37,411 nucleotides of DNA, taken from positions 1 to 37,411 of the forward strand of contig JABIPQ010000102.1 of the NCBI GenBank assembly GCA_018698975.1, given 5' to 3'. The notes beneath the pieces are model-generated. The model saw nothing but the letters and a program-made list of their open reading frames with translations, had not been told where the DNA came from and did no database searches. The translations under genes and the position numbers were made by a program. Within the stretch, counting starts at the first letter, position 1; each line of letters starts with the position of its first letter. Positions 12,277-32,558 of the stretch are shown here, piece by piece. The DNA comes from Gammaproteobacteria bacterium (GTDB lineage Bacteria > Pseudomonadota > Gammaproteobacteria > Pseudomonadales > Pseudohongiellaceae).

Positions 12277-13164
12277 TTAGTCCTGGGCAGGAACCGGGAA
12301 ATTCAGCTCAAGTATCGGGAAAAACGCCATAATAGCCTGCCTGAAAACTACCTGGATTTGCTCCAGAGCACTGGCTAAATCGGCCTCGAAACGCAGAATG
12401 AGATTAGGCGTGGTATTTGATGCGCGGATAAGTCCCCAGGCATTTTCTGTTTCCGCTCTGATTCCATCCAGGCGTTTTATATGGGCTCCCGGTATCTCCA
12501 GCTTTTCCAGCAGTGCATCCATGATTGAAAATTTTTCTTCTTCACTGACCGGTACATAGAGTTCAGCTGTGCTGTAGGTGATAGGGTACGTTTCCAGCAA
12601 GGTATCTGCACTGCGGTTTTTTTTATCCATGATTTCCAGGAATCTCGCCGCACTGTACATGCCGTCATCAAAGCCATACCAGCGGTGGCGGAAAAAAATA
12701 TGGCCCGAGTATTCTCCGCTCAGAAGCGCACCTGTTGCATGCATTTGTTGTTTAACAAAAGAATGGCCGCTTTTACACATTACCGGTTTGCCGCCTAGCC
12801 GGCTTATGGTTCGCGACAGATGTTGAGAGCTTTTTACATCAAAAATAATACTCCCACCGGGATTTTCCGGAACAATATCCTCTATAAAGGTCAGCATCAT
12901 TTTATCGGCATCAATAATCTTGCCGCTATTGCTTACCAGCACTACACGATCGCCATCACCATCAAAGGCAATACCAAGAGCTGCGTTTTCTTTGTTGGTC
13001 AGCGCTATAAGGTCTTGCAGGTTTTCCTCTCGCGTTGGATCCGGATGGTGATTTGGGAAGTTACCATCTGTTTCGCAATACAGGGGCACCACCTGGCAAC
13101 CGAGCGCAGCAAAGAGCTGGGGAGCAAAATTGCCGGCCACAGCATTGCCACAATCGATAACCAC
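12277..13164 (-). CDS. Phosphomannomutase/phosphoglucomutase, C-terminal part (domains 2-4)
   Basis: AlgC-type phosphohexomutase, C-terminal portion, interconverting hexose 1- and 6-phosphates for polysaccharide precursors. It starts at the codon directly after an in-frame TAA that cuts the gene. The first residues (VVIDCGNAVAG, GTG start if reinitiated) are the opening strand of domain 2. The Mg-binding loop FDGDGDR (68-73), sugar-recognition GEYSGHIFF and phosphate-binding RASNTTPNLILRFEAD are all intact, so the part shows no other decay. With the N-terminal part (13165-13701) it makes a 473-codon gene, normal for AlgC. It may be a pseudogene, a split enzyme made by reinitiation (TAAGTG), or a base error. 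Confidence 0.82.
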   Translation of the reverse strand: MVIDCGNAVAGNFAPQLFAALGCQVVPLYCETDGNFPNHHPDPTREENLQDLIALTNKENAALGIAFDGDGDRVVLVSNSGKIIDADKMMLTFIEDIVPENPGGSIIFDVKSSQHLSRTISRLGGKPVMCKSGHSFVKQQMHATGALLSGEYSGHIFFRHRWYGFDDGMYSAARFLEIMDKKNRSADTLLETYPITYSTAELYVPVSEEEKFSIMDALLEKLEIPGAHIKRLDGIRAETENAWGLIRASNTTPNLILRFEADLASALEQIQVVFRQAIMAFFPILELNFPVPAQD

Positions 13165-13701
13165 TTAATGGGATTTTTTGAGTTGGATGTTCTGGCGCAC
13201 AGTTTTTATATAGTCGGAGGCGATATCAAGAATGCTTGATGACCCGCACCCTTTGTGAAAATCCTCTCTGAGGATTCTTTCTTTAAGCCGGGTGATCTGA
13301 TCGGCGGCAAGGCAATTATTGTTAAGAACAATTTTTACGCCGTTATAATTTTTGGGATTATGGCTGCCAGTAATCATCACACCGGAATGCACATCAAGAT
13401 GATGTGTTGCAAAGTACATTAATGGGGTGGGACCGACACCGATGTTTACAACGTTGCACCCTGTGGAAAGAATACCTTTGATCATGGCATTGGAAAATGC
13501 GGGACTGGAGAGACGCGCGTCTGCACTGACTATGAGGGATTTCTCTCCGAGATCAAGAGCCTCGCTGGCTATAGCCTGGCCAATGAGCTGGATAATGCCC
13601 TCATCCAGACCTGCGCCCACCTCTTCGTCCACTCCTTCATACACTATGCCCCTGATATCATAGGCACGAAAAATATTGTCGGGAAGCCTGACCTTAAGCA
13701 C
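13165..13701 (-). CDS. Phosphomannomutase/phosphoglucomutase, N-terminal part (domain 1)
   Basis: N-terminal domain of an AlgC-type phosphohexomutase. The family start FRAYDIRG is present (11-18), and the catalytic phosphoserine loop TGSHNPKNYNG is intact with S113. The frame ends at TAA (13167-13165) in the linker between domains 1 and 2; the same frame resumes with GTG as the next codon. The start is a GTG at 13701, placed directly after the coaBC TAA, so coaBC and both parts lie in one continuous frame punctuated by two TAA-GTG junctions. Which protein is made cannot be told from DNA: full-length by readthrough, two pieces, or only domain 1. Confidence 0.8.
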   Translation of the reverse strand: MLKVRLPDNIFRAYDIRGIVYEGVDEEVGAGLDEGIIQLIGQAIASEALDLGEKSLIVSADARLSSPAFSNAMIKGILSTGCNVVNIGVGPTPLMYFATHHLDVHSGVMITGSHNPKNYNGVKIVLNNNCLAADQITRLKERILREDFHKGCGSSSILDIASDYIKTVRQNIQLKKSH

Positions 13702-18536: not shown

Positions 18537-18568
18537 AGCCAGATGATGAAAATCAGTTGGCTATTTTT
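18537..18568 (+). terminator. Predicted terminator of the cytochrome gene
   Basis: AGCCA (18537-18541) pairs with TGGCT (18558-18562), and inside it TGAT pairs with ATCA across a GAAA tetraloop; ATTTTTA follows. It lies 57 bp after the cytochrome stop and overlaps the last codons of the convergent M48 gene. Confidence 0.5.
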
Positions 18569-20103
18569 ACCCATTGTCCGGACTCAGGTTCGCCAAAAGG
18601 GTAGTCGCCATTTAATAGTCTGAGCATGTCCTCCTGGTGTTCAGTGAGTCGTGTCTGGCGTGCCAGATCTGCATAGGTGATCTGACCATCGGCCTGGATA
18701 TAGGTGATGTGGACAGGATTGGCAAACAGCATTTCATTGCGGGCGATTGGCCTGAAGCTACGAATTGATTCCATTAACTGCTCATCTGAAAAACCTTCTC
18801 CTGCTGAGCTGGTGAGGATAAATGCTCGTGGGCCAAGATAGAATACCGCCACTCTTTCACCAGTATCAGGATTGATCCCGGTAAACCCCGTTAGACCAAA
18901 TTGTGATATTGACTCTGATTGTTGCAGATTGCCTATGCCCAGGTTTTCCCGGATAAACAATCGGGGTTCTTTGGACTGCTGTAATCGTTGTGCTTCTACT
19001 TTTATGCTACTTCCTCCATCAATACTGACGCTATTCATGGTGGTTGTGGTTTCTTCTTTCGACCACCCTTCCGGGATGAGCATGGTGTAATTAAACAGGG
19101 TTTGATAATAGCGGTTGCGCTGATCACCACCAGCCGCATTCTGGGGGCTGGGGCCAACGATCAAACCGCTCATCTGTTCACGAAATACTGCAGGATCGCT
19201 TTCAGTAATTTGCTGATCTGACAAGGCCCCGACCTTGCCCACGGCTTCCTGCAAGCGGGTATCATTGCGCGGATGTGATGCAAAAAGACCGTGATAGCTC
19301 ACAGCAGTACGGTTCGATGTTCTCTTGGAAAAGTCTTCATGATTTTTCAACACTGAGATGACTTCCACCATGGCAAGCGGGTTATAGCCGGCATTGAAAA
19401 GATACTCGGCACCAAGACTGTCAGCCTCAAGCTCCATATCCCGCCCATAGCCACTGATAAGAGCGCCACTGATCAAGCTGGTGGTTTCCCGCAGATCTAC
19501 ACCTGTGGCAAAAATCAAGGCTATGGAGGCAGCACTGGCCGATCTGGCAGCTGTTTGCTGGCGTACAGCATGGCGGCCAGTGATATGACCAATTTCATGA
19601 CCAAGAACAGCGGCCAGTTGTGCTTCGGAGTTCAGATAAGTTAACAGACCGCGGTTCACATAAACAAAGCCGCCGGGCAGGGCAAAAGCATTGATGTCGG
19701 GGCTGTCGATAATAGTGAAAACATAATCCAGCTCCGGGCGATGGGAGATAGCAGCCATCTTCTGACCGATTTTTTCTACATAGGCCTGCAGTTCCGGATC
19801 CTGATAAATTGGATTTTGTTGCAGCATTTCAGCATGCAGCTCTCTCCCTTTTTCAATTTCGGCGCTTTCACTCATGAGCACGAAATTTGCTCCGCCAGTG
19901 GGGTTACCTGCGCAGGCAGTGAGGAAAAATGACAGTGATAGTGTAAAAAATAAGCGGCTGCGACCTGCTAATACGCGGCTACGACCTACTAATACGCGGC
20001 TGCGACCTACTAATACGCGGCTGCGACCTACTAATAAAAAGAAGGTGTGCGCAAAGAGGCGTATAACACCAAAAATTGTGAAGAAATAGCGCAAGCTTTT
20101 CAT
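18553..20103 (-). CDS. M48 family metallopeptidase, lipoprotein
   Basis: Predicted zinc protease of the cell envelope. A lipobox LTAC places the lipidated Cys at residue 64. The peptidase domain has HEIGH at 169-173 and the third-ligand motif ELEADSLGAEYL. About 230 further residues follow, ending in a module (LLNGDYPFGEPESGQWVKI) common in M48 quality-control proteases. The signal peptide is unusual: four copies of a 7-residue VLVGRSR-type unit (residues 24-50), encoded by 21-bp DNA repeats, sit between an N-terminal hydrophobic stretch and the real signal core. An AGGA lies 8 bases before the ATG at 20103. It may close the envelope gene block, but the 48-bp gap does not prove co-transcription. 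Confidence 0.88.
   Translation of the reverse strand: MKSLRYFFTIFGVIRLFAHTFFLLVGRSRVLVGRSRVLVGRSRVLAGRSRLFFTLSLSFFLTACAGNPTGGANFVLMSESAEIEKGRELHAEMLQQNPIYQDPELQAYVEKIGQKMAAISHRPELDYVFTIIDSPDINAFALPGGFVYVNRGLLTYLNSEAQLAAVLGHEIGHITGRHAVRQQTAARSASAASIALIFATGVDLRETTSLISGALISGYGRDMELEADSLGAEYLFNAGYNPLAMVEVISVLKNHEDFSKRTSNRTAVSYHGLFASHPRNDTRLQEAVGKVGALSDQQITESDPAVFREQMSGLIVGPSPQNAAGGDQRNRYYQTLFNYTMLIPEGWSKEETTTTMNSVSIDGGSSIKVEAQRLQQSKEPRLFIRENLGIGNLQQSESISQFGLTGFTGINPDTGERVAVFYLGPRAFILTSSAGEGFSDEQLMESIRSFRPIARNEMLFANPVHITYIQADGQITYADLARQTRLTEHQEDMLRLLNGDYPFGEPESGQWVKIAN
19954..20037 (-). repeat. Four 21-bp tandem repeats in the M48 signal-peptide region
   Basis: Units at 19954-19974, 19975-19995, 19996-20016 and 20017-20037 differ by one or two bases. 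Each encodes seven residues (LVGRSRV), so copy-number changes keep the frame and lengthen the N-terminal region by seven residues. Confidence 0.93.
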
Positions 20104-20151: not shown

Positions 20152-20844
20152 TCAGGTCCCGCTTCCGTTAATAAATTGTTTGAGCTGGTTACCCAGACCG
20201 CTGCAGGCATTGGCTTCCACCCTGGCGATTAGCGGGATTGGAATAACCACAGCCGGCATATAGGACTGACCATTAGCGTCTGTGCTGATCGAGCCAACGC
20301 TGCTCATTGTATCGAGATCCCAGATCTCTGCTTCAAAATTGGAATCATCTGTCCAGGTACCAAAGCCAAAACAGCCACCGCCGCCTGGTCCAATGGTGCA
20401 GGAAATAGAGCCGGACTGATCAGAACGCTCGGTGATGCCGTCCAGCCAGACAATGTACTCAATACCAAACTCCTCGAGTTTGTCAGCGGCAACATCCACT
20501 GCCATTAATTGCTCCAGGTGACCGGTACGCATCGGCGCCGTGCGTGGCTCAAAGAAAGGGAACATGGCATCAAGAAATAACTGTTCATCAACAACACTTA
20601 TTGAATTTTGGCCTCTGCTCACCACATCTGCAACACAAGTGACAAAGTCTTCTTCTGTTTCGTAGTTATTGTTCTGACGTCGACCGAGAATGACGATACT
20701 TTCATCAAAACTGATGGCGGTCGGGCTTTGCCTGAATTCATCAATTTCAGTTGTGGTGCAACTGCAAAGAAAAAAAATGGCCGGTAATACAAACGCCAGG
20801 CGGGGAATAGAGTTATATGTAAATTTAAATCGAAGTATATTCAT
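20152..20844 (-). CDS. Predicted lipoprotein, unknown function
   Basis: Not recognised. With ATG at 20844 (230 residues) it has a basic N-terminus, hydrophobic core and lipobox (FFLCSC) followed by TTTEIDEF, so it is likely an envelope lipoprotein. A GTG at 20883 would add 13 residues ahead of the basic region. The mature part has alternating strand/helix character (SIVILGRRQ, then EYIVWLDGITERS) and a Gly-rich loop with two Cys (SCTIGPGGGGC) that may form a disulfide. It follows another lipoprotein gene, 60 bp downstream on the same strand. Confidence 0.68.
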   Translation of the reverse strand: MNILRFKFTYNSIPRLAFVLPAIFFLCSCTTTEIDEFRQSPTAISFDESIVILGRRQNNNYETEEDFVTCVADVVSRGQNSISVVDEQLFLDAMFPFFEPRTAPMRTGHLEQLMAVDVAADKLEEFGIEYIVWLDGITERSDQSGSISCTIGPGGGGCFGFGTWTDDSNFEAEIWDLDTMSSVGSISTDANGQSYMPAVVIPIPLIARVEANACSGLGNQLKQFINGSGT

Positions 20845-20904
20845 GTTGTTGACTCTGCAAATAAGTTTTGCCTGATTTAACACAACTTCAAATACCTGGT
20901 TTTT

Positions 20905-21576
20905 CTACTCTTCCAGAAAGTTTTCTGAGCGCAACCATTCTTTAATTTCAGGGACATTGCCAAAGCCCAGGGTAAAGCTGGCGGCCAGATCACGTAAGGC
21001 AACATTGGCCGCATCATTGACGCCTGCATCCACTGACTGAAAAGTTTCTTCGGGTGACTTGCCATACGCTGTCATTACCCAGTCAGCAATATAGTCACCG
21101 TTTGTCCGGGCCAGGCGCATATTATATTTCACCCAGATTTCGTAAACATTGAGTCGGGTTTTCTGGGGTAATCCGACCTGGAATTCCTCGATCCCCGGAA
21201 TAAATACGGCATCAAGTCCGTTCAGGGCATTGGCGCTGTCAATGCTGTCCAGTTGGACCACTTCTTCAAATACTGCGGGTAACATGGTGTTAAAAAGTTC
21301 TATCTGAGACGAGCCGGAATTGATGATGTACTGATCATCCCCGGTATTATCATTGATCTCAATAAAACTGTGATTTGTGAAGGCATCGTCATAGAAGACC
21401 CCGACAGTAAGAGGCAGCTTTTGCACAAGCGGCGCCGGGAAGGTGCCGGAAATATTAATGGTTGTTGCTGAGCATGCCGTGAGTAGCAAAATCGCAGATA
21501 AAAGAAAGCCCTTCAGAGCTCCATGAGCGCTAATGCTTGTTAGACTGGTTGTCATAGTTCGTATCATTGGCATCAT
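20905..21576 (-). CDS. Predicted lipoprotein, unknown function
   Basis: Not recognised. The 223-residue protein has a signal peptide with lipobox LTAC (residues 32-35). The mature part opens with a strand that reads LTVGVFYDD and continues with helix-strand alternation, reminiscent of small envelope lipoproteins that bind partner enzymes or transporters; this is only a resemblance. Several ATG codons are clustered at the start (21576, 21573, 21567), so the exact start is uncertain. A possible promoter lies about 60 bp upstream, so it may be transcribed apart from the vWA genes, 108 bp away. Confidence 0.68.
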   Translation of the reverse strand: MMPMIRTMTTSLTSISAHGALKGFLLSAILLLTACSATTINISGTFPAPLVQKLPLTVGVFYDDAFTNHSFIEINDNTGDDQYIINSGSSQIELFNTMLPAVFEEVVQLDSIDSANALNGLDAVFIPGIEEFQVGLPQKTRLNVYEIWVKYNMRLARTNGDYIADWVMTAYGKSPEETFQSVDAGVNDAANVALRDLAASFTLGFGNVPEIKEWLRSENFLEE

Positions 21577-21632
21577 TTGAATTTTTAGCTACCTGTCCCG
21601 AATAAAGCACTTTTTCCATAGGGGGGATATCT

Positions 21633-21660
21633 ATATTACTCCAGTTTAAGTTTTCAGCAA
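21633..21660 (-). promoter_or_regulatory. Possible sigma70 promoter of the two-lipoprotein unit
   Basis: On the minus strand, TTGCTG (21660-21655), a 16-bp spacer and TAATAT (21638-21633) precede the ATG at 21576 by 57 bp. Both boxes are moderate matches in the only sizeable gap in this part of the block. Confidence 0.3.
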
Positions 21661-21684
21661 TAAGTCAGGTTAAATCCAGTAAAT

Positions 21685-22686
21685 TTAGTAAAAGTCATTC
21701 AGGCCGACAAATGTGCCGCCATTTTTGCGGGCCAACTCTCGCATCAAAGTGGCAAAGCGTATTCCGGTAGACTGATAACGCTCCGGTTGTGAGAAATATA
21801 CGGGGAAACCGATGCCATGGATTCTTACCAGGCGATTACCCTCCCGATCTTCCACATTAATCCGGTCCACTGTCTCAATCACATTCCTCACGGAGCCACT
21901 GGCGGGTGGAAATTCATCGCCGAGCACATAAATACTGATTTTCTTGCCCGGATCATAGTAATTTCGGATGGCATTGGTAATACCCTCTACAGGACTGGAG
22001 TTACTGAAAGGGTTCCAGGTGCGCAGGCGCTGCAATATCGCCTGTCTTCTGGCTGGAGTGTCCGGAATCCAGTCACCACGGAAACTGGAAAACAGGTACT
22101 CACCCATGTCATTCATTACCTGGATACCTTTAACTTCGGGATAAATATCCAGCGTATCTACCATGACCTCCAGCATACGAGACCAGCTATAGTTGAACAT
22201 ACTTCCCGAAGTATCGATGATAAATATGATGTATTCACTGTCTACTGGCACGCCACCCACGGAATCATTGAGCTGCAGCTGATCCATATTGGCCTGTAAG
22301 CGGCGCATTTCATCTGAAAGCTGTTGTCGTGCACGCGCGAGCTGGCCTTCCATGATGTCATTGACCGTAGAGTCCTGATCAGTGGCGTTAAACTGACCAT
22401 TTATAGTGGACAATTCACGGCGCAGGCGCGCGATCCTTTCTTCATACTGGGAGAGTTGTTCATGTTTGGCATTCATTTCGCGGTTAAGAATATTTGTTTC
22501 CCCGCGAATTTCGAAAAGCTGCCGTTGCAGCTCCAGCACGCTGCCTTCCACAGGAGTCTCTGATATTTCCAGCGGTGTTGGTGAAGATGACTTGGTAATC
22601 ATCAACAACAGAATGATGGCGCCAAATCCACAGGACATCACATCCAGGAAGGAAATATTAAAAGTCTCTGTTGTACGTCTGGCCAC
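21685..22686 (-). CDS. vWA domain protein with a TolR/ExbD-like N-terminal helix (copy 2)
   Basis: Predicted inner-membrane protein with a periplasmic vWA domain. One transmembrane helix lies at about 11-31; it opens with SFLDVMSCGFGA, where D15 takes the place of the proton-carrying Asp of TolR, ExbD and MotB helices. A coiled coil follows (about 48-140), then a vWA domain with an intact metal site IIDTSGSM (D158, S160, S162). It is paralogous to the upstream 375-residue protein: same helix motif, coiled coil and vWA order. The start is a GTG at 22686. It lies 83 bp after copy 1. I infer a subunit partnering the MotA/ExbB-like protein of the same cluster. Confidence 0.8.
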   Translation of the reverse strand: MARRTTETFNISFLDVMSCGFGAIILLLMITKSSSPTPLEISETPVEGSVLELQRQLFEIRGETNILNREMNAKHEQLSQYEERIARLRRELSTINGQFNATDQDSTVNDIMEGQLARARQQLSDEMRRLQANMDQLQLNDSVGGVPVDSEYIIFIIDTSGSMFNYSWSRMLEVMVDTLDIYPEVKGIQVMNDMGEYLFSSFRGDWIPDTPARRQAILQRLRTWNPFSNSSPVEGITNAIRNYYDPGKKISIYVLGDEFPPASGSVRNVIETVDRINVEDREGNRLVRIHGIGFPVYFSQPERYQSTGIRFATLMRELARKNGGTFVGLNDFY

Positions 22687-22769
22687 TATTTATATTATCT
22701 CTCAGGTTTACCTTGTTTCATTTTATTGCTGCGCTGCAGGCTGTTGATACCTGCAATGAGTAGTACCCA

Positions 22770-23897
22770 TTATGGCCAGTCCCTGGACGGGCTCAAGAAG
22801 GAGCCCCCTGTTGAAACAGCCAGCTTCCAATAAAGTGAAGCCGCCATAGGGTCACCCTCCAGCGGGGCTAATACTACATTGACCGGAATTCCTGCAGGCA
22901 ATCTCTCCAGAGCAACGTTGAACAATTCCTCACGCTCTCTGCCGGATATCGTATTTTTATTGCTCTCTGCACTGCGGTTAAAAAGGCCGCCTTCTCTTGT
23001 GCCCAAAGTGGGCAGGCCATCGGTGATGAGATAGATATTGTCAGGCAGCGGATTCATCATGGCGACTGCCTGAAATACATTTTCAAGGTTAGTGCCGTTT
23101 ACCGGGATGAGCTGGTTGAGCCGGCTTACGGTTTCGCTCAGCTGGGCTTCATCAGCCACTTCCAGCCAGTTGCCTTCTGTACCAGGAATCAAGGGCTGAA
23201 CATCCTCATTAAAGGCAAGAATCTGATATTGGCTGGGAGGTGGTAATTGTGTTGTCAGCCAATCCACAACTTTTCGCACTGCCACCCATTTCTCTGAGTT
23301 CAGTTTGGCATCATCTGACATATTGCGCCGACGAATAATATTTACAATGGTGTTATCGAGCATACTGGCAGAGGTATCCACCAAAATAAGTATTCTGCTG
23401 CCGCCCAGAATCAGTCCGGTGAGATATTGGCGGTTGCCATCACCCACATAGGGCCGGATAAAATTTCCACTGAATGAGTCCGAGGATGCACGCAAACGTT
23501 CCAGTTCTTGTTCAAGAGCCTGGATATCAGATTTCAGTTTTTCGACACTTTCCCTGCGTGCCAATGTTGTATTTTCCAGTTGCGCCAGCTCTTCCAGAAA
23601 GGTCGTTATTTCATCCTGAATAGAGCGCGCCAGGCCCTGGGCTTCAACCATCTGGAAGTCAACGTCCGAAATAGTATTACGCACTCTGACGAGATTTGCT
23701 TCACCATCAGTAATTTCATCATTGAGTAAGTTTATTTCGGCGGCAAGCTCGGGATTAGTGACTGCGTTTTGAGTGCTGGATGAGTGGTCCAGAATAAGAA
23801 AAATAAGTACAACGGCACCAAAGCCACAGGACATTACATCCAGAAAAGAAAGACTGATAGGGTTGAATTCACGCTTGGCCGCCTTGCTCTCTGCCAT
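22770..23897 (-). CDS. vWA domain protein with a TolR/ExbD-like N-terminal helix (copy 1)
   Basis: Predicted inner-membrane protein. A basic start is followed by one helix (about 15-37) with SFLDVMSCGFGAVV, where D20 matches the TolR/ExbD/MotB channel Asp. A long coiled coil (about 48-137) separates it from a vWA domain whose metal-ion site is intact (ILVDTSASM: D174, S176, S178; later LITDG). The vWA fold binds partner proteins through a bound metal. The gene begins three bases after the stop of the Hsp70-like gene, itself overlapping the MotA/ExbB-like gene, so these three are tightly coupled. The helix match is by eye and needs a profile search. Confidence 0.82.
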   Translation of the reverse strand: MAESKAAKREFNPISLSFLDVMSCGFGAVVLIFLILDHSSSTQNAVTNPELAAEINLLNDEITDGEANLVRVRNTISDVDFQMVEAQGLARSIQDEITTFLEELAQLENTTLARRESVEKLKSDIQALEQELERLRASSDSFSGNFIRPYVGDGNRQYLTGLILGGSRILILVDTSASMLDNTIVNIIRRRNMSDDAKLNSEKWVAVRKVVDWLTTQLPPPSQYQILAFNEDVQPLIPGTEGNWLEVADEAQLSETVSRLNQLIPVNGTNLENVFQAVAMMNPLPDNIYLITDGLPTLGTREGGLFNRSAESNKNTISGREREELFNVALERLPAGIPVNVVLAPLEGDPMAASLYWKLAVSTGGSFLSPSRDWP

Positions 23898-23900
23898 CGT

Positions 23901-25226
23901 TTATTCCACCTGAATAAACTGTAAGGGATTTGCTGTACCCGGTAGACAGATAACATCACCGAGTTTCAGATGCTCAGTTGCAGAGGCCAGATTACCATTG
24001 AGTTCAACGGCACTGCCTTCGGAGCAATCCAGCTGTACGCTTTCAGCATTTAACGAAAAGTTTAATTGACCACTTTGTGACGCTTCAAGAAAAATATTGT
24101 CAGCAACCTGTGAGGAGTGGTTATTTACAGGTCCATAGTGAATAGACACCGGGAGTGTATAGGCACGATGGTTAATCAGAATATGAGAAGGGACATTATC
24201 TTTACTCACGGAGCGAGCCGGTTTTTCCTGGCCACCAGGATTCGATGCCGGAAGACTGGCCACTAAATTAAGCGAGCCAGGCTCTCCCTTGATGTGATCA
24301 AGATTGGCCAGAGTATTTTCCAGCAATTGCGAATCTTTGACCGCTGTGATGTTGTTCAGACAAAGGGAAAGTCCGGGAAGATTTGCATGTGCTTCTGGTA
24401 AATACAAAGCGCTATCATTTCCAACCAATGATTCCAGTTCTGATTTAATGCGCGCAAAAATGTTTTTGCTACGCTGCTCAAAATGTCCCCTGTTTATTTT
24501 TGCCTGATAGACCGAGCCTTTATTGTTGATCTCCATCAGGATCTCATTGTCATGTAAGGAACGCTTAAGCCAGTCTTCGAGCTGGTTGTAAACATACTGT
24601 TCGGTTTCAGCATTATGATGAGGGTCAAAACGACTTTGCTTTATAAATTCATCGGTGAGCATGTTCACCCAGCTATCATGCAGGGCGATCAAGCCTGTGC
24701 CAGGAATTTGAATTACCTTGTCGCGAGCAGGCTTGCCATCTTTGCTTGTGAATGTCGTCAGCACAGACTGGTGTAGCTGAATATCCAGATATACCGTGAT
24801 ATCAGGATCAGCAGAATTACCTGACATTAACAATGGCATATCAACCAGGCCGGCGGCGTCAAACTCGCAGGACTGAACCAGTCCGAGCAAAATAGAAAGC
24901 TGGTTTCTGTTGTAGTTGCTGGGGACGGCAAAAATCACGTCGTCTTTTAGTGCATGCTGGTTGGCAATATCATTTAAATGGGCGAAGGCCAGATCGGCCT
25001 GATGACGAAAATGGTTGTTGCTGTTGACCAGCGGATCCAGGCTTAACTGAGACCAGAACTGTGAATAGGTATGACGCGGATGTAATCTTGCAGAATTGCG
25101 TGCCGGTTCGCCAAACACAGGGGTTTTGTCTGCAATATTGGCAAAGCCCGGGCTTTGTACAAGGACTTCATTCTGATTACGCAGGCTAATGCTGCGGTCA
25201 TTTAATTCAATGATATGAACACTCAC
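23901..25226 (-). CDS. Degenerate Hsp70/actin-like ATPase-fold protein with FHA-like tail
   Basis: The first 330 residues resemble an Hsp70/actin-type nucleotide-binding fold. The strand-turn at the start (IIELNDRSISL) sits where Hsp70 has DLGTTNS, a degenerate phosphate-1 loop; AVPSNYNRNQLSILLGL matches the Hsp70 ITVPAYFxxxQR motif; VYLDIQLHQS matches phosphate-2. Loss of the Gly/Thr residues makes ATP hydrolysis doubtful. The last 90 residues are strand-rich and end in ELNGNLASATEHLKLGDVI, like a divergent FHA or similar beta-sandwich. No signal or membrane segment is seen: cytoplasmic. The GTG start overlaps the stop of the MotA/ExbB-like gene (GTGA), suggesting a cytoplasmic partner of that channel. 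Confidence 0.65.
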   Translation of the reverse strand: MSVHIIELNDRSISLRNQNEVLVQSPGFANIADKTPVFGEPARNSARLHPRHTYSQFWSQLSLDPLVNSNNHFRHQADLAFAHLNDIANQHALKDDVIFAVPSNYNRNQLSILLGLVQSCEFDAAGLVDMPLLMSGNSADPDITVYLDIQLHQSVLTTFTSKDGKPARDKVIQIPGTGLIALHDSWVNMLTDEFIKQSRFDPHHNAETEQYVYNQLEDWLKRSLHDNEILMEINNKGSVYQAKINRGHFEQRSKNIFARIKSELESLVGNDSALYLPEAHANLPGLSLCLNNITAVKDSQLLENTLANLDHIKGEPGSLNLVASLPASNPGGQEKPARSVSKDNVPSHILINHRAYTLPVSIHYGPVNNHSSQVADNIFLEASQSGQLNFSLNAESVQLDCSEGSAVELNGNLASATEHLKLGDVICLPGTANPLQFIQVE

Positions 25227-26041
25227 GCTTGTTCAGCCTTTTCCGGAACCTGTAAATGTCTGATCAGGTAGTTGTCACAATAATTTTGCGTATCAAGTAC
25301 CAGGCGGTCCTGCATAAGCTGGAGCTGGTAAAGCAGGAACATGATCAGGATGCTGACAACCAGGGCAATAAAGGTCGAGTTGAAAGCTACGCCCAGACTG
25401 ACAGTCACACCGACAATATCGCCGCTGACTGCCCGATGGGCTTGCCCAAGGGCTTCACCAATGCCGCGCACAGTCCCCAGGAAGCCAATGGATGGAATTG
25501 CCCAGGCAATATAGCGCACAATGGTTAATTCACTTTCCAGACGGTCTGCTTCGGTATTACAGATATCCTTAATGACAGAAGCAACATCGGTAATGCTATG
25601 AGTCGAACCAAAGCGTTGTAATGCGCCGAGTAAAGCTCTTGGCAGCAGGAATTGCCGCTCATCAGGGGGAAGGGCTTGAACCGGTCGTGAATAATCTCTG
25701 GCATCTTCCGGCAAAATGCTCATGCCTTCTGATAAATTCAACAGTGAGCGTTCAAGCAATTTGTTTTCATTACGATTGCGCGTAATTTTCAAACCAATAA
25801 TGGACATAGCCCAAAGCATCAGGATGATGCAGGTTTCCTGTTCATAATCTTTCATTACAACAAAAAGGGAGCGTTCGCCAACGTAATCCGGATCAACGGC
25901 TTGTTGAGCAGTCTGCTGTTCCATAATCGCCTCTGCATTTGGGCGTATCACAGCAACATAAACTGCATGTACAACAATCACAGAAATAATAAGTGCGAAA
26001 ACCTGATAGATAAAATCCGAAATAATGCCCTGTTGCTTCAT
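25223..26041 (-). CDS. MotA/TolQ/ExbB-type proton channel subunit
   Basis: Predicted inner-membrane subunit of a proton-motive-force motor. The 272-residue protein has a helix at about 8-30, a second at about 71-87, a cytoplasmic segment, and a C-terminal pair (about 178-200 and 215-245). The C-terminal pair carries the family core IPSIGFLGTVRGIGEAL, then VSLGVAFNSTFIAL, the conserved TolQ/ExbB/MotA signature. ATG 26041 has an AGG seven bases upstream. It is preceded by a small secreted-protein gene (24 bp) and overlaps the Hsp70-like gene. Its likely partners are the two vWA proteins with TolR-like helices encoded two and three genes downstream, replacing the usual ExbD/TolR/MotB. Confidence 0.88.
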   Translation of the reverse strand: MKQQGIISDFIYQVFALIISVIVVHAVYVAVIRPNAEAIMEQQTAQQAVDPDYVGERSLFVVMKDYEQETCIILMLWAMSIIGLKITRNRNENKLLERSLLNLSEGMSILPEDARDYSRPVQALPPDERQFLLPRALLGALQRFGSTHSITDVASVIKDICNTEADRLESELTIVRYIAWAIPSIGFLGTVRGIGEALGQAHRAVSGDIVGVTVSLGVAFNSTFIALVVSILIMFLLYQLQLMQDRLVLDTQNYCDNYLIRHLQVPEKAEQA

Positions 26042-26065
26042 ATTCTTGCCTTTGTTTTTTTAAAA

Positions 26066-26344
26066 TCAGATGTCCACGGGAAACGCCACAGGTAAATCTT
26101 CAGCTATTCGTATACTGGGTATAAAATTATCGTCTGAAGTCTCTGCGCTGGTTTCACTAATCGTCTCATTGTTACTTTCATCAAAAATGCTTTCATCAAG
26201 AGCGTTTTCATTCTCTTCTGAACTAATTTCTACTGCCGGTACAGTTACCGTTACACCCTCATCGATTTCGATATTGTCTTGCGCGGCATACAGCCCAGTT
26301 AATGGGGAAACTGCAATGAGGATTGCCATAGCCTTAGCTTTCAT
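26066..26344 (-). CDS. Small secreted acidic protein, unknown function
   Basis: Not recognised. It has a signal peptide (MKAKAMAILIAVSPLTGLYA, cleavage before AQDN) and a very acidic, low-complexity mature part of about 72 residues rich in Glu, Ser, Asp and Asn. I chose ATG 26344 (92 residues); a GTG at 26353 that overlaps the previous stop is the alternative. It sits between the PEGA/FGE-like gene and the MotA/ExbB-like gene with tiny gaps, so it is part of the unit. No family can be named. Confidence 0.6.
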   Translation of the reverse strand: MKAKAMAILIAVSPLTGLYAAQDNIEIDEGVTVTVPAVEISSEENENALDESIFDESNNETISETSAETSDDNFIPSIRIAEDLPVAFPVDI

Positions 26345-26349
26345 GATTA

Positions 26350-28458
26350 TCACTCAAGATAACGTGCCACTCTAAAACCTACATCATCGCGCGGTTCGTC
26401 GTTATAGTCGCGAAAGGAAAGTCTGAGCTCTGTAATAGTGCCATGTGCCCAGCTTGATCCTCTTATGACATGGTAAGTACCGCTTGTCGGACCCAGGGGG
26501 TCAGTTTCTACTGCCGCGCCTATTTGTCCACTGGCGCCATAAAAATCATGTACCCATTCTGCCGCATTGCCACCTATGTCAAAAAATCCATTGCTGTTAG
26601 GCGGGAAGCTTCCAACAGGTGCTGTGCCGAGGTAGCCATCATTGTAGTTGGCGATAATTCTGCCCAGGAAAACTCCTGCTGAGATGTCGGCATAATTGCC
26701 ATGATTGGCAGGGGGAGGCAGCTGTGCACCCCAGGGGAATTTCAGCAGACTTGTCGGTTCACCCTCAACCCTGGCTGCCCATGACCACTCTGCCTCCGTT
26801 GGCAGGCGGTAGCCAGTACTGGCGGCATTAAAGCCTGTAACCACACCATTTTCTGTGGTGTAAAATGGCTCAAGTCCTTCCTGTGCACTTAACCAGTTAG
26901 AAAAAAGTGCAGCTTGATCCCAGCTCACTCTGATTACTGGCTGGTTGTTATTGCTCATGGTCCTGCCTTCCACCACGCCTGAAGAATGCTCTGAGTCAAA
27001 TTGAGCAAACTGGGCATTGGTGACTTCCATCAGGGAAAGATAAAACGGGCGCGTGAGGCTGACATTACGTAAAACTTCATTTGCCTGTCTACCAGGTTCA
27101 CGGCGTGATGCGCCCATTTGAAAACTGTCGGGGTAAATAAGTTTCATGGACTGGCCAGCAGCATTGGTGATAAAGGTTTTTATTGAATCAAGTCGCTGCT
27201 GTTCCAGTGATTTAAGAATGACGTCCAGTTTCTGATCAAGGCCTGGTCGCGAAACAAATTCTGTTTCATAGCTCACATAGCCTTCATAACGAATTTCAAG
27301 AAGCTGTCTTGCTGCCAACAACTCGATAGTCTGGTTAGCATTGCCCTTGTACTCGCCATTCACATATAACTCAGCTTGTTGTGGTACGACGCTGATTTCA
27401 ACGGAACTAAGAATTGGCTCAAGATTCACCTGAAGTGAAGCTTCTTCTTCAGGGCGTGTGCTTATGGAGCGCCGGGCTTCTTCATAGCCGTTAAGAAAGA
27501 ATGACAGGTCATGAGAGGTGCCAGGTGGCACGGTAATTTCAAGCGGGGTTTGCCCCTGAAATACTCCGTCAACAGTTACATTGGCATTACTGGGGGTAGA
27601 TTGCAGCAGTACCAGGCCATCAGCCTGCTCAAGTTCAATTAAAGGGACTGTTATGTTTTGCCTGGCGCTGACACTGATGTCTTCTGTCCAGGCCTTATGG
27701 GCAGGCAGCTTCACAAGTACTTCATGTGCTCCGGCAAGGATTTCTGTTACAAGTGGTGTCTGCCCTACGTCCAGACCATCTACTGTGACCATGGCGCCAG
27801 CCGGGCTGGTACTAAAACTTACCTCGGCCCAGGCAGGAAGTAATTTTACTTCCAGGCCCTGACTGGTTTGGCGTCCTTCCATAAAAATTGAAGTTTCAAA
27901 GGGTTCGTAGCGATCCAGAATGATGGAAATCACATGGTTGCCAGCAGCAAGCTCAAAATCAGTAAGCGGTGTTTGCCCTACTTCCTCGCCACTTATGATG
28001 ACCTGGGCGCCATCGACATCTTCAGTACTAACGCTGAGAAAGCCTGGTAATGGCACCATATCGATAACAAAGGTTTGTGCCTGCTGGTCTGTAACTGTAA
28101 GAGAGGTGTCCAGCGGGTAGTAACCTTCAGCTGTCACCATGACTGGTAGCTGGCCGTCGAGCACCAGATAACGAGGACCGATTTTTACAGCCAGTGGATG
28201 ATTAACCTTGATAAGGCTGGTAGCCGGCGTAACGTCCAGGTATACCGATTTAGCGGAAAGAACAAACCAGGCGACACCGGTAAATAACACCAGAAAAGCA
28301 GACAGGACTATCTTTACCGGGCTGAGTTTGAAATTGATTTTTCGCGAGTACTGATCGACCGGCGTAAAATCAATAGGCTGGATGGGGTCGTTGAAGTTCC
28401 CCTTGCCATTGCTCTCCATATTATTTTCAGGAGTTGGATTGATTTTGTCGTCAGGCAT
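26350..28458 (-). CDS. PEGA-repeat protein with a C-terminal FGE/SUMF1-like domain
   Basis: A 702-residue envelope protein: cytoplasmic N-terminus (1-47), one transmembrane helix (about 48-68, VKIVLSAFLVLFTGVAWFVL), then at least four periplasmic PEGA-type repeats, each with a VDG-x-GxTPL-like turn (for example GLDVGQTPL and GVFQGQTPL), and a C-terminal formylglycine-generating-enzyme-like domain (about 440-702). The latter has FQMGASRREPG, the RLPTEAEWSWAAR signature and the end motif RGSSW...GFRVAR. I do not see the reactive Cys pair of true FGE, so it is probably a binding or scaffold domain with this fold. It follows the TPR gene by 29 bp. Confidence 0.85.
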   Translation of the reverse strand: MPDDKINPTPENNMESNGKGNFNDPIQPIDFTPVDQYSRKINFKLSPVKIVLSAFLVLFTGVAWFVLSAKSVYLDVTPATSLIKVNHPLAVKIGPRYLVLDGQLPVMVTAEGYYPLDTSLTVTDQQAQTFVIDMVPLPGFLSVSTEDVDGAQVIISGEEVGQTPLTDFELAAGNHVISIILDRYEPFETSIFMEGRQTSQGLEVKLLPAWAEVSFSTSPAGAMVTVDGLDVGQTPLVTEILAGAHEVLVKLPAHKAWTEDISVSARQNITVPLIELEQADGLVLLQSTPSNANVTVDGVFQGQTPLEITVPPGTSHDLSFFLNGYEEARRSISTRPEEEASLQVNLEPILSSVEISVVPQQAELYVNGEYKGNANQTIELLAARQLLEIRYEGYVSYETEFVSRPGLDQKLDVILKSLEQQRLDSIKTFITNAAGQSMKLIYPDSFQMGASRREPGRQANEVLRNVSLTRPFYLSLMEVTNAQFAQFDSEHSSGVVEGRTMSNNNQPVIRVSWDQAALFSNWLSAQEGLEPFYTTENGVVTGFNAASTGYRLPTEAEWSWAARVEGEPTSLLKFPWGAQLPPPANHGNYADISAGVFLGRIIANYNDGYLGTAPVGSFPPNSNGFFDIGGNAAEWVHDFYGASGQIGAAVETDPLGPTSGTYHVIRGSSWAHGTITELRLSFRDYNDEPRDDVGFRVARYLE

Positions 28459-28487
28459 TATTGTTTAATTAGTCCCTGGAAAATTTT

Positions 28488-30047
28488 TTATAGTATCTCT
28501 TCAACACACTGCACAGTGATGACAGGTGACTGCCCGTCAAAACCTACCACGAATTCTTCCCTGACATCGCGGAACCCAGCCCTGATGCCAACCGCCACAT
28601 AGGTGCCAGGCGTTAGACTCAAGGTTTGATTGGCGATTAGTCCCAGGTTGCCTACCTGGTAAACAGTTATATCGGTAAGGCCATCGGATTGTATTTGAAC
28701 AGGAACTGGTTCAGTGGCACGTTCAATGAAATTACGCAAAGTAAGCAGTTGGTCATTTAGCCTGGTCCAGTTGCCTTCAATCTTGGCGGCCTCGTTATAG
28801 ATACTCACGGCTTGTTGATAAACAGCATTTTCTGCAAGACGTAAGGGGTCGTTATTAATAGTGTCCAGATAGCTGTCCAGATTATTTCGGCTATTGGCCC
28901 TGCTCTTTCCTTCACGCGCGGATACCAGATTCGGATCTATGGTGAGGGCTTCATCATATTCAGCAAACGCTTGCTGCCATTGTTCCTGGTTTTCAAAGGC
29001 ACTGGCAGCGTCCAGATGGATGTTGATTGCACTTAAGGTCATTTGACTGACAGTTTGTTCCAGTGCCGAACTGGCTTCAGGAGAATCAGGCTTCAGTGCC
29101 AGGGCTTGCTGGAAAGCGATTTCAGCTTCTTCAGGAGCATTTGATGCAAGTGCAGCAAAGCCGCGAGACATCACCTGGGAAAAATCCCGATCGAGAATAT
29201 CGCGAGTTACACTTGCAAGCAGTTCACCAGCACCAATATGGGCGGGATCTTTATCCAGAGCCTGCTGATATTGTTCCATGGCATTTTCAAATTGAGCAAG
29301 CTCATGGAACTCTATACCCTGATCAATAAAAACCAGTACCTGGGTGAGCAACTGAGCGCGATTATAACCGGTTACAGCCGCGTCACTGTCGGGATTAATC
29401 AGCACCGCAATATTGAATGATTCTTCTGCCAGTGTTGGGTCGTCATCCAGAATCGCCTGTTCACCCATTGCCATGTAACGACTGAAAACATCAGGCAAGC
29501 TGGCATCAAGAGTGCTGAGGATGTCGAGCCCTTCCTGATAAGCCGACGTTGCAGCGATGAAATCCTGGCCCTGGTATGCCTGATCACCGATGCTGGCGAG
29601 CTCAAATACTCTGTTAATGCTTTCTTCAGCCCAAAGGGAGACTTCCTTTTCATCCAGGGATTCCTGAAGATCCAGAACTTCTGCCAGAACATTTTGCGCG
29701 GCTTCGCGCTGGCGTAACTTTTGTGCTTCTTCAAACGGCGCTACAGAATTCACTGGCGCTGCGGAATTGGCTTGTGGGGGTAAAACGACAACTCTGGATA
29801 CTGATGCGGAATCGGGGGGTGAAATTAATTCAGGCAGAATGAAAATTACACCGCCTACCAGAGCCAATAGTAGAAAAAAGATACCGCCCAATATTCTGGA
29901 CTGTTTCTTTTTTTCTTCATCACTGCGCCGAATTTCCTCTACGCCCAAAGGCGCTGTTGACGTTTCCGAAACAGCTTCCCGGGACGAGGCTTTACCGCTT
30001 AGATTGATATCAGCAGGGGTGATTTTTTCAAATTCTGAATCAGCCAT
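28488..30047 (-). CDS. Membrane-anchored TPR protein
   Basis: A 519-residue bitopic protein. The N-terminal 48 residues are charged and cytoplasmic, with a basic KKKQSR before the helix (about 50-71, ILGGIFFLLLALVGGVIFIL). The periplasmic part is Ala/Glu/Gln-rich and helical with TPR-like units (QGQDFIAATSAYQEGLDIL, LAQFENAMEQYQQALDKDP, QWQQAFAEYDEALTIDPN). The end is strand-rich (LSLTPGTYVAVGIRAGF) like a single PEGA module. It lies between a lipoprotein gene (55 bp upstream) and the PEGA/FGE-like gene (29 bp downstream). I infer a scaffold for the envelope complex. Confidence 0.85.
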   Translation of the reverse strand: MADSEFEKITPADINLSGKASSREAVSETSTAPLGVEEIRRSDEEKKKQSRILGGIFFLLLALVGGVIFILPELISPPDSASVSRVVVLPPQANSAAPVNSVAPFEEAQKLRQREAAQNVLAEVLDLQESLDEKEVSLWAEESINRVFELASIGDQAYQGQDFIAATSAYQEGLDILSTLDASLPDVFSRYMAMGEQAILDDDPTLAEESFNIAVLINPDSDAAVTGYNRAQLLTQVLVFIDQGIEFHELAQFENAMEQYQQALDKDPAHIGAGELLASVTRDILDRDFSQVMSRGFAALASNAPEEAEIAFQQALALKPDSPEASSALEQTVSQMTLSAINIHLDAASAFENQEQWQQAFAEYDEALTIDPNLVSAREGKSRANSRNNLDSYLDTINNDPLRLAENAVYQQAVSIYNEAAKIEGNWTRLNDQLLTLRNFIERATEPVPVQIQSDGLTDITVYQVGNLGLIANQTLSLTPGTYVAVGIRAGFRDVREEFVVGFDGQSPVITVQCVEEIL

Positions 30048-30102
30048 GGTGTGCTGCTCATGATTAGTGAATTAGCCCTGATCCAGGACGGCTTATCCAT
30101 CA

Positions 30103-31296
30103 CTATAAATCCGAGCTGGGTGCCTCCCCGATTTCATTGGCATAAATGTCCGCAAGAAGTTCACGCCACTGCTCATATTGTGCCTCAACAGAACCTGACA
30201 GGGTAATGGTTCGCTCTTCAAGCTCAATGGTGCGTGGTGCAATTTCCATTTCGAGAGAGTTGCCGAGCTCGGCCAATGCCTCGATATGCATTTGCCGTTC
30301 ATCGCCTTTATTAAAAGCATCCTTGATTAACCAGCCACCACTGGCAAGAATGATGGGCGAGGAATAATAAGCTGCAGCATTATTGCTTTGAGTTGCGGCG
30401 ATACCACCAAGAATAGCGGCCACACCCATGATCATATTGCGGCGTGAATCGGCAGCAAGCCTATCCATTTTCATCACTTCGTCATAACTCATGCGGCGAA
30501 ATTCTGTGTAAGGACCGTCCATCTGACGAACAAAATTTGAGTAGTAATCCTGCAGGGAGTCCACGTAGAGATAGTCCCTTTCACGAATATTTTCTATTCT
30601 GGCCAGAATCGGGTCATTTTCAGCCGGCAGGCGTTTGATTTCCAGTCTGCCATTGCGCCCTTCTTCCAGGTAATCATCAAACACCTGGGGAGCAAAGTCG
30701 CGGGCAAATTGTATTTGGGAGACGGTGCGAATATTGAGGATTTCTTCCCGCTCGATATTGCGCTGCTTATATTCCAGCAGATCATTGGCAATTTTATTGA
30801 ACAGGCCCTGAAAGGCATCTTCGCTGCGACGCATGCGCGGGTCATAACTGTACTTGCTCACTACCTCTTCATATTCCTTGTCGATCCAGGTGGCCCCTGT
30901 GGCATCTTTCACATTGACCTGCATACGCATGGTCTCACCATCTGATTGCAGGATGGTGCCGGTTATTGCCAGATCTGAACTGGACAGGTCTCCGGGAACA
31001 ACTCTGACGACACCCCAGTTACCACTGGTTTGCAGTGCAGCGGCCAGATTGTAGGAGGCAAAATAGGTTTCTGCCATGCGAACATCGGAAAAGGTCAGCT
31101 CTTCCCGGTTACTGGGGATATCATCCAGTCCGGGTTGGAAAATGCCAATACCGATATCCAGCAGCTCTTCTTCAACAATGCCGGACTGGTCTGCATCAAT
31201 GGGGGTGAAGGTGGTGGACTTCACTGTCTGGGTAGCACAGGCGCTGACACCTGCGATCACCAATAATAAGAAAATCGGCTGAAATAGTCTTAACAT
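30103..31296 (-). CDS. Predicted lipoprotein, unknown function
   Basis: Not recognised. ATG 31296 (397 residues) is preferred because a good AAGGAA lies seven bases upstream and it starts right at the signal peptide; the frame is open to 31326. The lipobox is VSAC, followed by ATQTVK. The N-terminal domain has the strand-helix pattern (IGIGIFQPG, WGVVRVVPG, LAITGTILQ) seen in several accessory envelope lipoproteins. A short Gly/Ala-rich hydrophobic stretch (GVAAILGGIAATQ) follows near residue 300, and the C-terminus is charged. It heads the tightly packed part of the cluster, 134 bp after the Ser-rich lipoprotein gene. Confidence 0.72.
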   Translation of the reverse strand: MLRLFQPIFLLLVIAGVSACATQTVKSTTFTPIDADQSGIVEEELLDIGIGIFQPGLDDIPSNREELTFSDVRMAETYFASYNLAAALQTSGNWGVVRVVPGDLSSSDLAITGTILQSDGETMRMQVNVKDATGATWIDKEYEEVVSKYSYDPRMRRSEDAFQGLFNKIANDLLEYKQRNIEREEILNIRTVSQIQFARDFAPQVFDDYLEEGRNGRLEIKRLPAENDPILARIENIRERDYLYVDSLQDYYSNFVRQMDGPYTEFRRMSYDEVMKMDRLAADSRRNMIMGVAAILGGIAATQSNNAAAYYSSPIILASGGWLIKDAFNKGDERQMHIEALAELGNSLEMEIAPRTIELEERTITLSGSVEAQYEQWRELLADIYANEIGEAPSSDL

Positions 31297-31430
31297 AACC
31301 AGATTCCTTCTATGCTCCATTCTCAATTCTCAACTCTTGTTTCAATTACTACCCCGATTGTCAGGGGATGGATAGTTTTATACGCAGTTAACAGATAATT
31401 GGGCTTTCTTTGTCTTTTTTAAAGGCTGTA

Positions 31431-32558
31431 TTACTGACCAAGGCCTGTGTAAGCACGGTATTCATCCCAGAGTCTTTCGCGTAATTCCGGGTCGGGTTCG
31501 CGCATTGCGGCCTCTCTGAGCTGCCTTGCTACAACATCATCGTCATTTCCACTGGGGATATCATCAGGTGTCTCAAAAGTTTCCTGTGGACTGGTATTGG
31601 AAAAGTCACCTTCCCGGTTGGCGTTTCCGGCTGGCATTACGCCACCGCCAGTTGAGCCCGAAGGAGCCGATGCAACAATTAGGGGACCGCCTGGCTCACC
31701 ATCGCCACTGCCAGCACCTGCTCCGCCATTAGACATGACATCGCTGCCTGCTTCATCCGCCTCAGCCTGGACACGTTCACGTTCGCCGAGAATCATGCCA
31801 TCAAATTCGGCAAAGCCTTCATTCAATCTGGCATCAAGTGCGGCCCTGCGTTCGGAAGCAGTCATTACCTGGCCGCGTCCTGCAGATAAATCGCCAAAAG
31901 GATCATCTCCATTGCCCTGATTTCCTGCAGAACTACTGCCATTAGCGGAACCGTTACTTTCAAAACCACCATTATTGCTGGCCCCTGCAGTTTGCTGACC
32001 ACTGCCTTGCTGTCCATTATTTTGTGAGCCGGCTTGTGTGCCTGAATTTTGTTCACCACTATTTCCAGCATCGCCAGATTCTCCTGTATCTCCAGGGCTC
32101 TGGCCTTGAGTGCCGCTGACCTGGGGAGAAGACTGCTGGCCTCCATTACTTGAAGAGTTGCTGTCCTGGGATCCATCTTGTTGCTCGCTTGATTGAGATG
32201 AGCTGGAGCTGTCACCGTTGCTACTGGAGCTACTATCACTAATAGTAGGCATTCCAGGTGATCCGGGCATGCCTGGGGATGCACTGGGCATGCCGGGAGA
32301 TGAGCTTGAACTACTTGACGAAGTACTGGGCATGCTGGGCGATGAACTTGAGCTGCTTGAAGATGAACTCGGCATGCTGGGGGATGAGCTCGAACTGCTG
32401 GATGAGCTGGAGGATGAACTGGGCATGCTCGAAGAAGAAGAGCTTGAACTTGAGGTACTCTGGCAGCCAGTAATAACAAGGACAGCCAGGCCCAGAAGCA
32501 GTTGCGAAATAATTACGTGTCGTTTCATCATTTTAATCTTTTTTAAAATTGCCGCCAT
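31431..32558 (-). CDS. Ser-rich low-complexity lipoprotein
   Basis: A 375-residue predicted lipoprotein. The signal peptide ends in a lipobox VITGC (Cys about 32). The mature protein begins with long Ser runs broken by periodic PSMP/PGMP units, then a Ser/Gln/Asn/Gly-rich stretch to about residue 225: a long disordered linker. The C-terminal part is charged and ordered-looking (ASERRAALDARLNEGFAEFD, then DDDVVARQLREAAMRE and LRERLWDEYRAYTGLG). ATG 32558 is preferred because of GGAGG and AGG upstream; ATGs at 32531 and 32528 are alternatives. It is the first gene of the same-strand block, so I infer an outer-membrane-anchored tether. Confidence 0.78.
   Translation of the reverse strand: MAAILKKIKMMKRHVIISQLLLGLAVLVITGCQSTSSSSSSSSSMPSSSSSSSSSSSSSPSMPSSSSSSSSSSPSMPSTSSSSSSSSPGMPSASPGMPGSPGMPTISDSSSSSNGDSSSSSQSSEQQDGSQDSNSSSNGGQQSSPQVSGTQGQSPGDTGESGDAGNSGEQNSGTQAGSQNNGQQGSGQQTAGASNNGGFESNGSANGSSSAGNQGNGDDPFGDLSAGRGQVMTASERRAALDARLNEGFAEFDGMILGERERVQAEADEAGSDVMSNGGAGAGSGDGEPGGPLIVASAPSGSTGGGVMPAGNANREGDFSNTSPQETFETPDDIPSGNDDDVVARQLREAAMREPDPELRERLWDEYRAYTGLGQ

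Follow-up and report, generated by a model that had tools for sequence, protein, structure and literature searches.

The TolQ-TolR, ExbB-ExbD and MotA-MotB motors are 5:2 assemblies in which an A-type channel subunit with two pore threonines is paired with a B-type subunit whose helix carries an Asp, and in type IX secretion a scaffold of the formylglycine-generating enzyme (FGE) fold, GldK/PorK, stands beside the ion-driven motor GldLM. A recent paper describes in its main text tolQ-like genes of Proteobacteria and Verrucomicrobia that co-occur with genes for von Willebrand factor A (vWA) proteins, with no tolR or exbD (PMC12204202, Mol Biol Evol 2025). According to that text, the vWA genes form predominantly heterologous pairs, their transpore helix has a proton-binding Asp, AlphaFold 3 (AF3) models place such pairs within TolQ-like pentamers, and the function is unassigned. 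The relevant passages of another source treat vWA systems with no mention of ExbB, TolQ or MotA (PMC7159879), and those of a MotAB study do not contain 'vwa' (PMC12505986). In Myxococcus, AglR is found with AglQ and AglS, both ExbD/TolR-domain proteins, with the FHA-TonB protein GltG and with the tetratricopeptide repeat (TPR) proteins GltD/E (PMC3169522, in the passages on its components), and the homo- or heterodimer state of AglRQS has been called open (PMC9389320, in the passage concerned).

Here we describe a block of eleven genes, K to A, on contig JABIPQ010000102.1 (positions 1 to 37,411) of assembly GCA_018698975.1, from an uncultured gammaproteobacterium; this whole stretch of 37,411 nucleotides (nt) is referred to as the window. 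We found that the block, like the transpore-helix (TPH) vWA family described for Idiomarina in the main text of PMC12204202, combines vWA genes with an adjacent tolQ-like gene, shows no tolR or exbD among the ten block proteins scanned, and has a heterologous pair of Asp-helix vWA proteins; this is a likeness at the level of description. The block is real, conserved and coherent, and its recurrence across 80 loci excludes a chance association of its genes. Judged from sequence, it probably encodes, on balance, an ion-driven (most likely proton-driven) trans-envelope machine with a ring of F, an axle of C and D, a periplasmic scaffold, outer lipoproteins and an adaptor, E.

The block consists of eleven minus-strand open reading frames (ORFs) in the ORF list of the window, from 32558 down to 20152; by their coordinates F/E and H/G overlap by 4 nt each and the remaining junctions are separated by 3 to 108 nt. 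A preliminary description, made from the letters of the window, had proposed these eleven consecutive genes with their tiny gaps and overlaps as one unit, and every ORF is indeed present at its place. The genes, with one associated neighbour, are as follows:

K, 31431..32558, minus strand: lipoprotein with an ITGC lipobox and a long linker rich in Ser; the motif DDDVVARQIREAA..EKLWEEYRKYK at its C-terminus is conserved
J, 30103..31326, minus strand: lipoprotein; putative FlgT/PelC/CsgG/TolB-N-like domain at the N-terminus, then long helices at low model confidence
I, 28488..30047, minus strand: bitopic protein with TPRs C-terminal to the transmembrane (TM) helix (Pfam)
H, 26350..28458, minus strand: bitopic protein without Cys that joins four PEGA repeats to an FGE-fold domain
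G, 26066..26353, minus strand: small acidic exported protein, not found at the seven-gene loci described below
F, 25223..26041, minus strand: channel subunit of MotA/TolQ/ExbB type with invariant T190 and T223
E, 23901..25226, minus strand: protein with the fold of an Hsp70 nucleotide-binding domain, probably without ATPase activity; C-terminal FHA-derived domain, degenerate in the window
D, 22770..23897, minus strand: transpore-helix vWA protein with TM helix SFLDVMSCGFGA, coiled coil, and vWA domain with metal ion-dependent adhesion site (MIDAS)
C, 21685..22686, minus strand: transpore-helix vWA protein, paralogue of D
B, 20905..21576, minus strand: accessory lipoprotein, missing in several lineages
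A, 20152..20883, minus strand: accessory, probable lipoprotein, missing in several lineages
M48 metalloprotease, 18553..20103, minus strand: BepA/LoiP-like, below curated cut-offs; probable associated gene beyond the eleven-gene span

Pfam, NCBIfam and PADLOC scans covered the ten block proteins A to F and H to K, and PHROGs covered C, D, F and J. Within this scope none of the four collections returned a named system, and neither Pfam nor NCBIfam gave anything above curated cut-offs for E, A, B, J and K.

The motor core is formed by F, C and D. F matches MotA_ExbB in Pfam (2.1e-13; 50.6 bits against a cut-off of 22.9), as the proposal of an ExbB-like channel had anticipated, and its pore threonines T190 and T223 are Thr in all 99 F proteins compared and align with threonines of the same genome's own ExbB/TolQ-type proteins. 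D matches VWA_2 just over the cut-off (2.9e-6), C by itself falls below it (0.041), and the two profiles are homologous along their length (99.6% probability, 22% identity). Each protein has a single TM helix of the SFLDVMSCGFGA type at its start, and the Asp within this helix is invariant (90/90 C and 92/92 D proteins). The MIDAS motif DxSxS is retained in 90/90 C and 91/92 D proteins, with D158, S160, S162 and D257 of C unchanged in all 90, and the two TolR-helix vWA proteins of the preliminary description are borne out. No ExbD/TolR match was found by Pfam in the ten block proteins scanned; profile searches against PDB sequences gave matches for C and D that look like coiled-coil chance, and none for F. 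The A-subunit domain, the two pore threonines and the Asp-bearing single-TM partner of B type are features of the MotA/TolQ/ExbB motor superfamily.

The set of loci comprises the best 80 of 468 stretches encoding relatives, obtained by scanning genome contigs with F as query, with gene order read by profile search. The full order K-J-I-H-G-F-E-D-C-B-A was found in 47 of the 80, and L100 and L110 also hold all eleven genes, one of them twice, which makes 49 complete loci; a doubled D is apparent in L101 and L110, and a doubled I in L100. Among the other 31 loci, 20 are bounded by the end of a contig on one or both sides. B and A are missing from L085, L098, L101, L102 and L106, and in L077 they are reversed and on the far side. 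C is present in 71 of the 74 loci with D and immediately follows D in every one of the 71, and in the three without C (L045, L084 and L097) the contig ends at most 148 bases behind the last match. A candidate D-C fusion in L169, prompted by a 688-residue C frame, was ruled out, as D has its own frame of 377 residues there.

D is present in 39 of 57 relatives, namely the window's own genome, 35/35 others of its genus and family, and 3/21 from the order's other families, and J is present in exactly those 39 and missing from the remaining 18. Across genomes sampled evenly from the class, D is strong (E < 1e-70) in 20 of 274 genomes, and C adjoins it in 18 of these 20, D touching or being cut by a contig end in the other two. 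Any D match at all was found in 27 of the 274, most of the seven weaker ones falling in unrelated-looking stretches. J occurs in 19 genomes of this sample, 18 of them together with D; G143 and G268 have D and lack J. The one candidate for J without D, G240, has I broken into three pieces and J into two, with no F or D match in the genome, so the region reads as a decayed block. A decayed block remnant lies at L191:7873-10689, where I is spread over three frames and J over two, with repeated transposase-like ORFs close by. In a sample of the phylum, D matches occur in 18 of 398 genomes; the 12 strong ones all belong to family f217, which shares the phylum but not the class, and C was matched in each of these 12 as well. 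As a separate observation, another contig of the window's genome (L192:1681-3464, G000:C29) encodes a second J-like protein of 356 residues beside a 246-residue lipoprotein-like ORF, and many further genomes of the family likewise give a second J-like match.

Furthermore, we found that the block can be split. L037, L040, L041, L042 and L044 carry G-F-E-D-C-B-A alone despite 9.7 kb of upstream sequence. In the five genomes of genus g2, which belongs to the same family, J and D are on different contigs (G006, G018 and G023) or share a contig at distances of 34 kb and about 120 kb (G013 and G028), and K-J-I-H stands together and in order in the three g2 genomes examined for it (G013, G023 and G028). 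There are hence two sub-blocks, K-J-I-H (the scaffold and outer part) and G-F-E-D-C-B-A (the motor part), that are separable in place. F itself is detached from the block in G268, where J was not found, and moved behind C in G147; in G017, K-J sits behind C in inverted orientation, and the 16 kb examined there showed no F. Homologues occurring apart had been named beforehand as an outcome that would speak against a common system. Such separation is real as regards place, but as regards presence it fails, J and D being co-inherited even where the block is split and K-J-I-H stands elsewhere. On the strand opposite to the split motor block and upstream of it, an FHA-like ORF adjoins a secreted-protease-like ORF, both judged by eye (L037:422-2712 and L044:5748-8047).

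A seven-gene form, K-J-I-H-F-D-C without E, G, B and A, occurs in the f217 loci L164, L165, L177 and L183, in L167 (f142) and in L182 (f65), and F and D likewise stand without E in L120-L123, L127, L132 and L170. From these loci it follows that K-J-I-H-F-D-C is the common set, which recurs outside the class, and that the other genes are lineage additions or losses. K heads the block in E-containing and E-less loci alike.

H and I correspond by their domain matches to the bitopic PEGA/FGE and TPR scaffolds that had been proposed. In Pfam, H matches PEGA in four repeats (3.8e-47) and, in addition, the FGE-sulfatase fold (8.5e-38). Formylglycine-generating enzymes have an active-site cysteine pair. 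Within the last 270 residues, the 83 H proteins compared contain one Cys in 79 and none in four, the window's H being without any; the fold is therefore probably structural, as in GldK.

Several lipoproteins had also been predicted, and K, J and B of the window do carry a lipobox, A having a weaker LCSC by eye. Where a lipobox was found (none in 3/28 K, 9/77 J, 2/67 B and 16/66 A proteins), the +2 residue after its Cys is never Asp. Under the +2 rule a residue other than Asp directs a lipoprotein to the outer membrane, which points to that location for K, J, B and A. The model of J, with a predicted local distance difference test (pLDDT) score of 77.9, contains a putative alpha/beta domain that resembles FlgT (VIA Z 10.9), PelC (10.7), CsgG (9.8) and TolB (9.1) over 103-135 residues; the best Foldseek value is 1.1e-3, and DUF330/PqiC, LptE and TraT chains are also in the VIA list.

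E had been described as an Hsp70-like ATPase, of which the fold is supported and the activity is not. The E model, built on a 31-row alignment (pLDDT 88.6), matches Hsp70 nucleotide-binding domains with a VIA Z of 26.8 and a root-mean-square deviation of 2.8 over 311 residues, and its best Foldseek value is 8.2e-18. It differs from them in that Pfam gives no PF00012 match in E, in a C-terminal FHA-type domain and in the phosphate loops. In a profile alignment with the genome's DnaK/HscA, of only 39% probability, the phosphate-2 loop DLGGGTFD of DnaK stands opposite LDIQLHQSV, and by eye the counterpart of GIDLGTTNS in DnaK is, in the first strand of E, IELND. With the phosphate-2 loop lost, ATPase activity is unlikely, and E is likely, as we infer, a pseudo-ATPase, a dead Hsp70 fold that lacks at least one phosphate loop. 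The C-terminus of E is a Pfam FHA domain in L077, L085, L106, L171 and L173 (3.4e-14 to 5.2e-12), gives no Pfam FHA match in L168 and is degenerate in the window.

An intact FHA domain tends to go with a Ser/Thr kinase domain on I. The window's I lacks a kinase domain, but in 10 of 81 loci with I the protein has an N-terminal extension of 205-308 residues; the four extensions tested are protein kinases in Pfam (8.7e-10 to 4e-29), and that of L171 matches kinase models in NCBIfam. The HRD motif is present in five and DFG in seven of the eight extensions inspected, with L077 degenerate. In 73 loci where E and I were both detected, kinase and FHA motif occur together in eight, neither in 64 and the kinase alone in one, L108, in which the last match stops within E, 7 bases short of the end of the contig. 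The association has a Fisher p of 6.7e-10 with kinship ignored. On a tree of F, D and C, obtained by a quick search and with long branches meeting, kinase and FHA each change twice, giving one to two independent pairs, so that we do not rest the claim on the Fisher value.

Some further observations concern phosphorylation. In the kinase-bearing loci L077, L085, L098, L101, L102, L104, L171 and L173, H is extended at its N-terminus by 125-172 residues. By eye this extension looks FHA-like, but Pfam gave no FHA match for the three H proteins tested (L085, L173 and L106). We considered and dropped a connection between the block and the Ser/Thr kinase that the genome encodes elsewhere: the only PF00069 match of the genome is on another contig (G000:C119, L190:7088-8812), where it lies beside a PP2C-like ORF, and no link was seen. 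Two sister-type loci, L178:7122-11750 and L179:5563-10174, reached through two weak matches of the class sample, encode a related helix INIFSMSALDLFASAMGAFIL, joined to a vWA head in L178 and to another head in L179. Genes of PP2C type, FHA genes and trypsin-FHA genes lie beside them. L178 also has a MotA_ExbB gene and L179 has ORFs resembling kinases, the assignments of kinase and PP2C in L179 being made by eye. The combination hints at a wider link between such Asp helices and phosphorylation signalling.

Under the reading that we favour, F subunits would form the channel ring, and the TM helices of C and D would sit in its pore with one Asp each, probably as a C/D heterodimer. Ion flow would move these helices, and the motion would pass from them to the periplasmic vWA heads. 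H, with its PEGA repeats and FGE fold, and I, with its TPRs, both anchored in the inner membrane, would build the periplasmic scaffold. J and K, lipoproteins probably in the outer membrane, would be the outer counterpart, J acting through its TolB-N/PelC/CsgG-like domain and K through the long Ser-rich tether with the conserved motif at its end. E would be a cytoplasmic adaptor combining a dead Hsp70 fold with FHA, and where I has a kinase, E would probably sense phosphorylated threonine and gate the machine accordingly. A more specific version, in which an asymmetric 5:1:1 motor with an obligate C/D-type heterodimer as axle drives the seven-gene machine and, in some lineages, is switched by the TPR-fused kinase, read by the dead-Hsp70/FHA adaptor, is tentative and, taken as a whole, rather unlikely.

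Several points weigh against this machine. The gene order is not fixed everywhere, given the g2 split, the positions of F in G268 and G147 and the G017 inversion, and E, G, A and B are dispensable; the exact co-occurrence of J and D counterbalances the loss of fixed order and leaves our estimate unchanged. The loss of ATP binding in E is read from one loop in the weak alignment above and from a first strand compared by eye. The matches of J span about 150 of its 407 residues with no Foldseek E-value below 1e-3, and the outer-membrane placement depends on the +2 rule. The kinase-FHA link is statistically weak, with only one or two independent events, and is suggestive and not proof. Finally, a single F with two B-type genes is also compatible with two homodimer motors. 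In such an arrangement, which is possible though somewhat unlikely, F5C2 and F5D2 would be separate motors on one channel protein, with different vWA heads and different partners; one F gene would serve both, and C and D, at 22% identity in their profile alignment, have diverged as strongly as different partners might. Against this, C adjoined D wherever the contig continued, and the main text of PMC12204202 likewise reports predominantly heterologous pairs, but neither point is decisive.

Other explanations change the purpose of the block. A machine for gliding, adhesion or surface transport like Agl-Glt of Myxococcus seems unlikely: the passages of PMC3169522 give a parts list of the same sort, and I matches GltE weakly (3.6e-5, below the cut-off), but AglQ and AglS have ExbD/TolR domains where C and D have vWA domains, Pfam finds neither ExbD nor TonB in the ten block proteins scanned, and the likeness is one of parts list. 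We also regard as improbable a gated ion channel or sensor in place of a motor, whose vWA heads would sense the envelope and whose channel would signal to E; FHA and kinase occur in some lineages, and a sister-type locus joins ExbB, vWA, PP2C, FHA and protease-FHA genes, yet loci that lack E and the kinase retain the set of lipoproteins and scaffold proteins. A Zorya-like anti-phage system, suggested by a weak PADLOC match of F to ZorA (PDLC00635, 0.0046), is highly improbable. No further Zorya component is among the matches of the proteins scanned, D is in all 35 further genomes from the window's genus and family and has no plasmid match, C, D, F and J have no PHROG match, and the neighbouring genes of the window, which we take from their sequences to be housekeeping genes, count against it as well.

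As for the surroundings, the M48 gene lies on the same strand directly after A in 50 of the 60 loci with A, and its protein is lipoprotein-like, with a repeated 'VLVGRSR'-type stretch close to the N-terminus. At 12277-13701 of the window, a gene that by eye is phosphomannomutase/phosphoglucomutase-like is interrupted by one in-frame TAA, either a true change or an assembly error. Promoter- and terminator-like sites in the window are as numerous in shuffled sequence and say nothing on transcription units.

Taken together with known systems, the block shares with the TolQ-TolR, ExbB-ExbD and MotA-MotB motors the A-subunit domain, the two pore threonines and the Asp helix, and differs in having vWA heads and two paralogous B-type subunits. 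Tol-Pal is set apart by the lack of TolA, TolR, TolB propeller and Pal (OmpA domain) from Pfam matches of the proteins scanned. H matches GldK at 8.9e-29, but with 101 bits against a cut-off of 350. AglRQS-Glt, as its published passages present it, is alike in one TolQ-like and two TolR-like proteins, an FHA protein and TPR proteins, and differs in its ExbD/TolR heads and TonB-type FHA protein. The preliminary description knew of no named system with this content; the block is indeed still nameless, and searches of open-licence PMC text brought up no system of this gene content, yet a motor core of this kind was already published in 2025, with the same idea, in the main text of PMC12204202. 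That main text, figures and supplements aside, contains none of 'pega', 'fge', 'hsp70', 'kinase' and 'sulfatase'. New here are the wider co-inherited set, the pseudo-Hsp70/FHA adaptor, the kinase fusion on I and the putative TolB-N/PelC/CsgG/FlgT-like domain of J. The motor core is thereby placed in a defined seven-gene set with candidate outer-membrane partners, its function amenable to deletion tests, and Woeseiaceae and relatives offer a candidate phosphorylation switch. Whether motors with two axle subunits run as heterodimers is the question stated for AglRQS in the passage of PMC9389320, and to this question the vWA family brings a strictly paired case, C and D, present in cultured isolates such as Microbulbifer.

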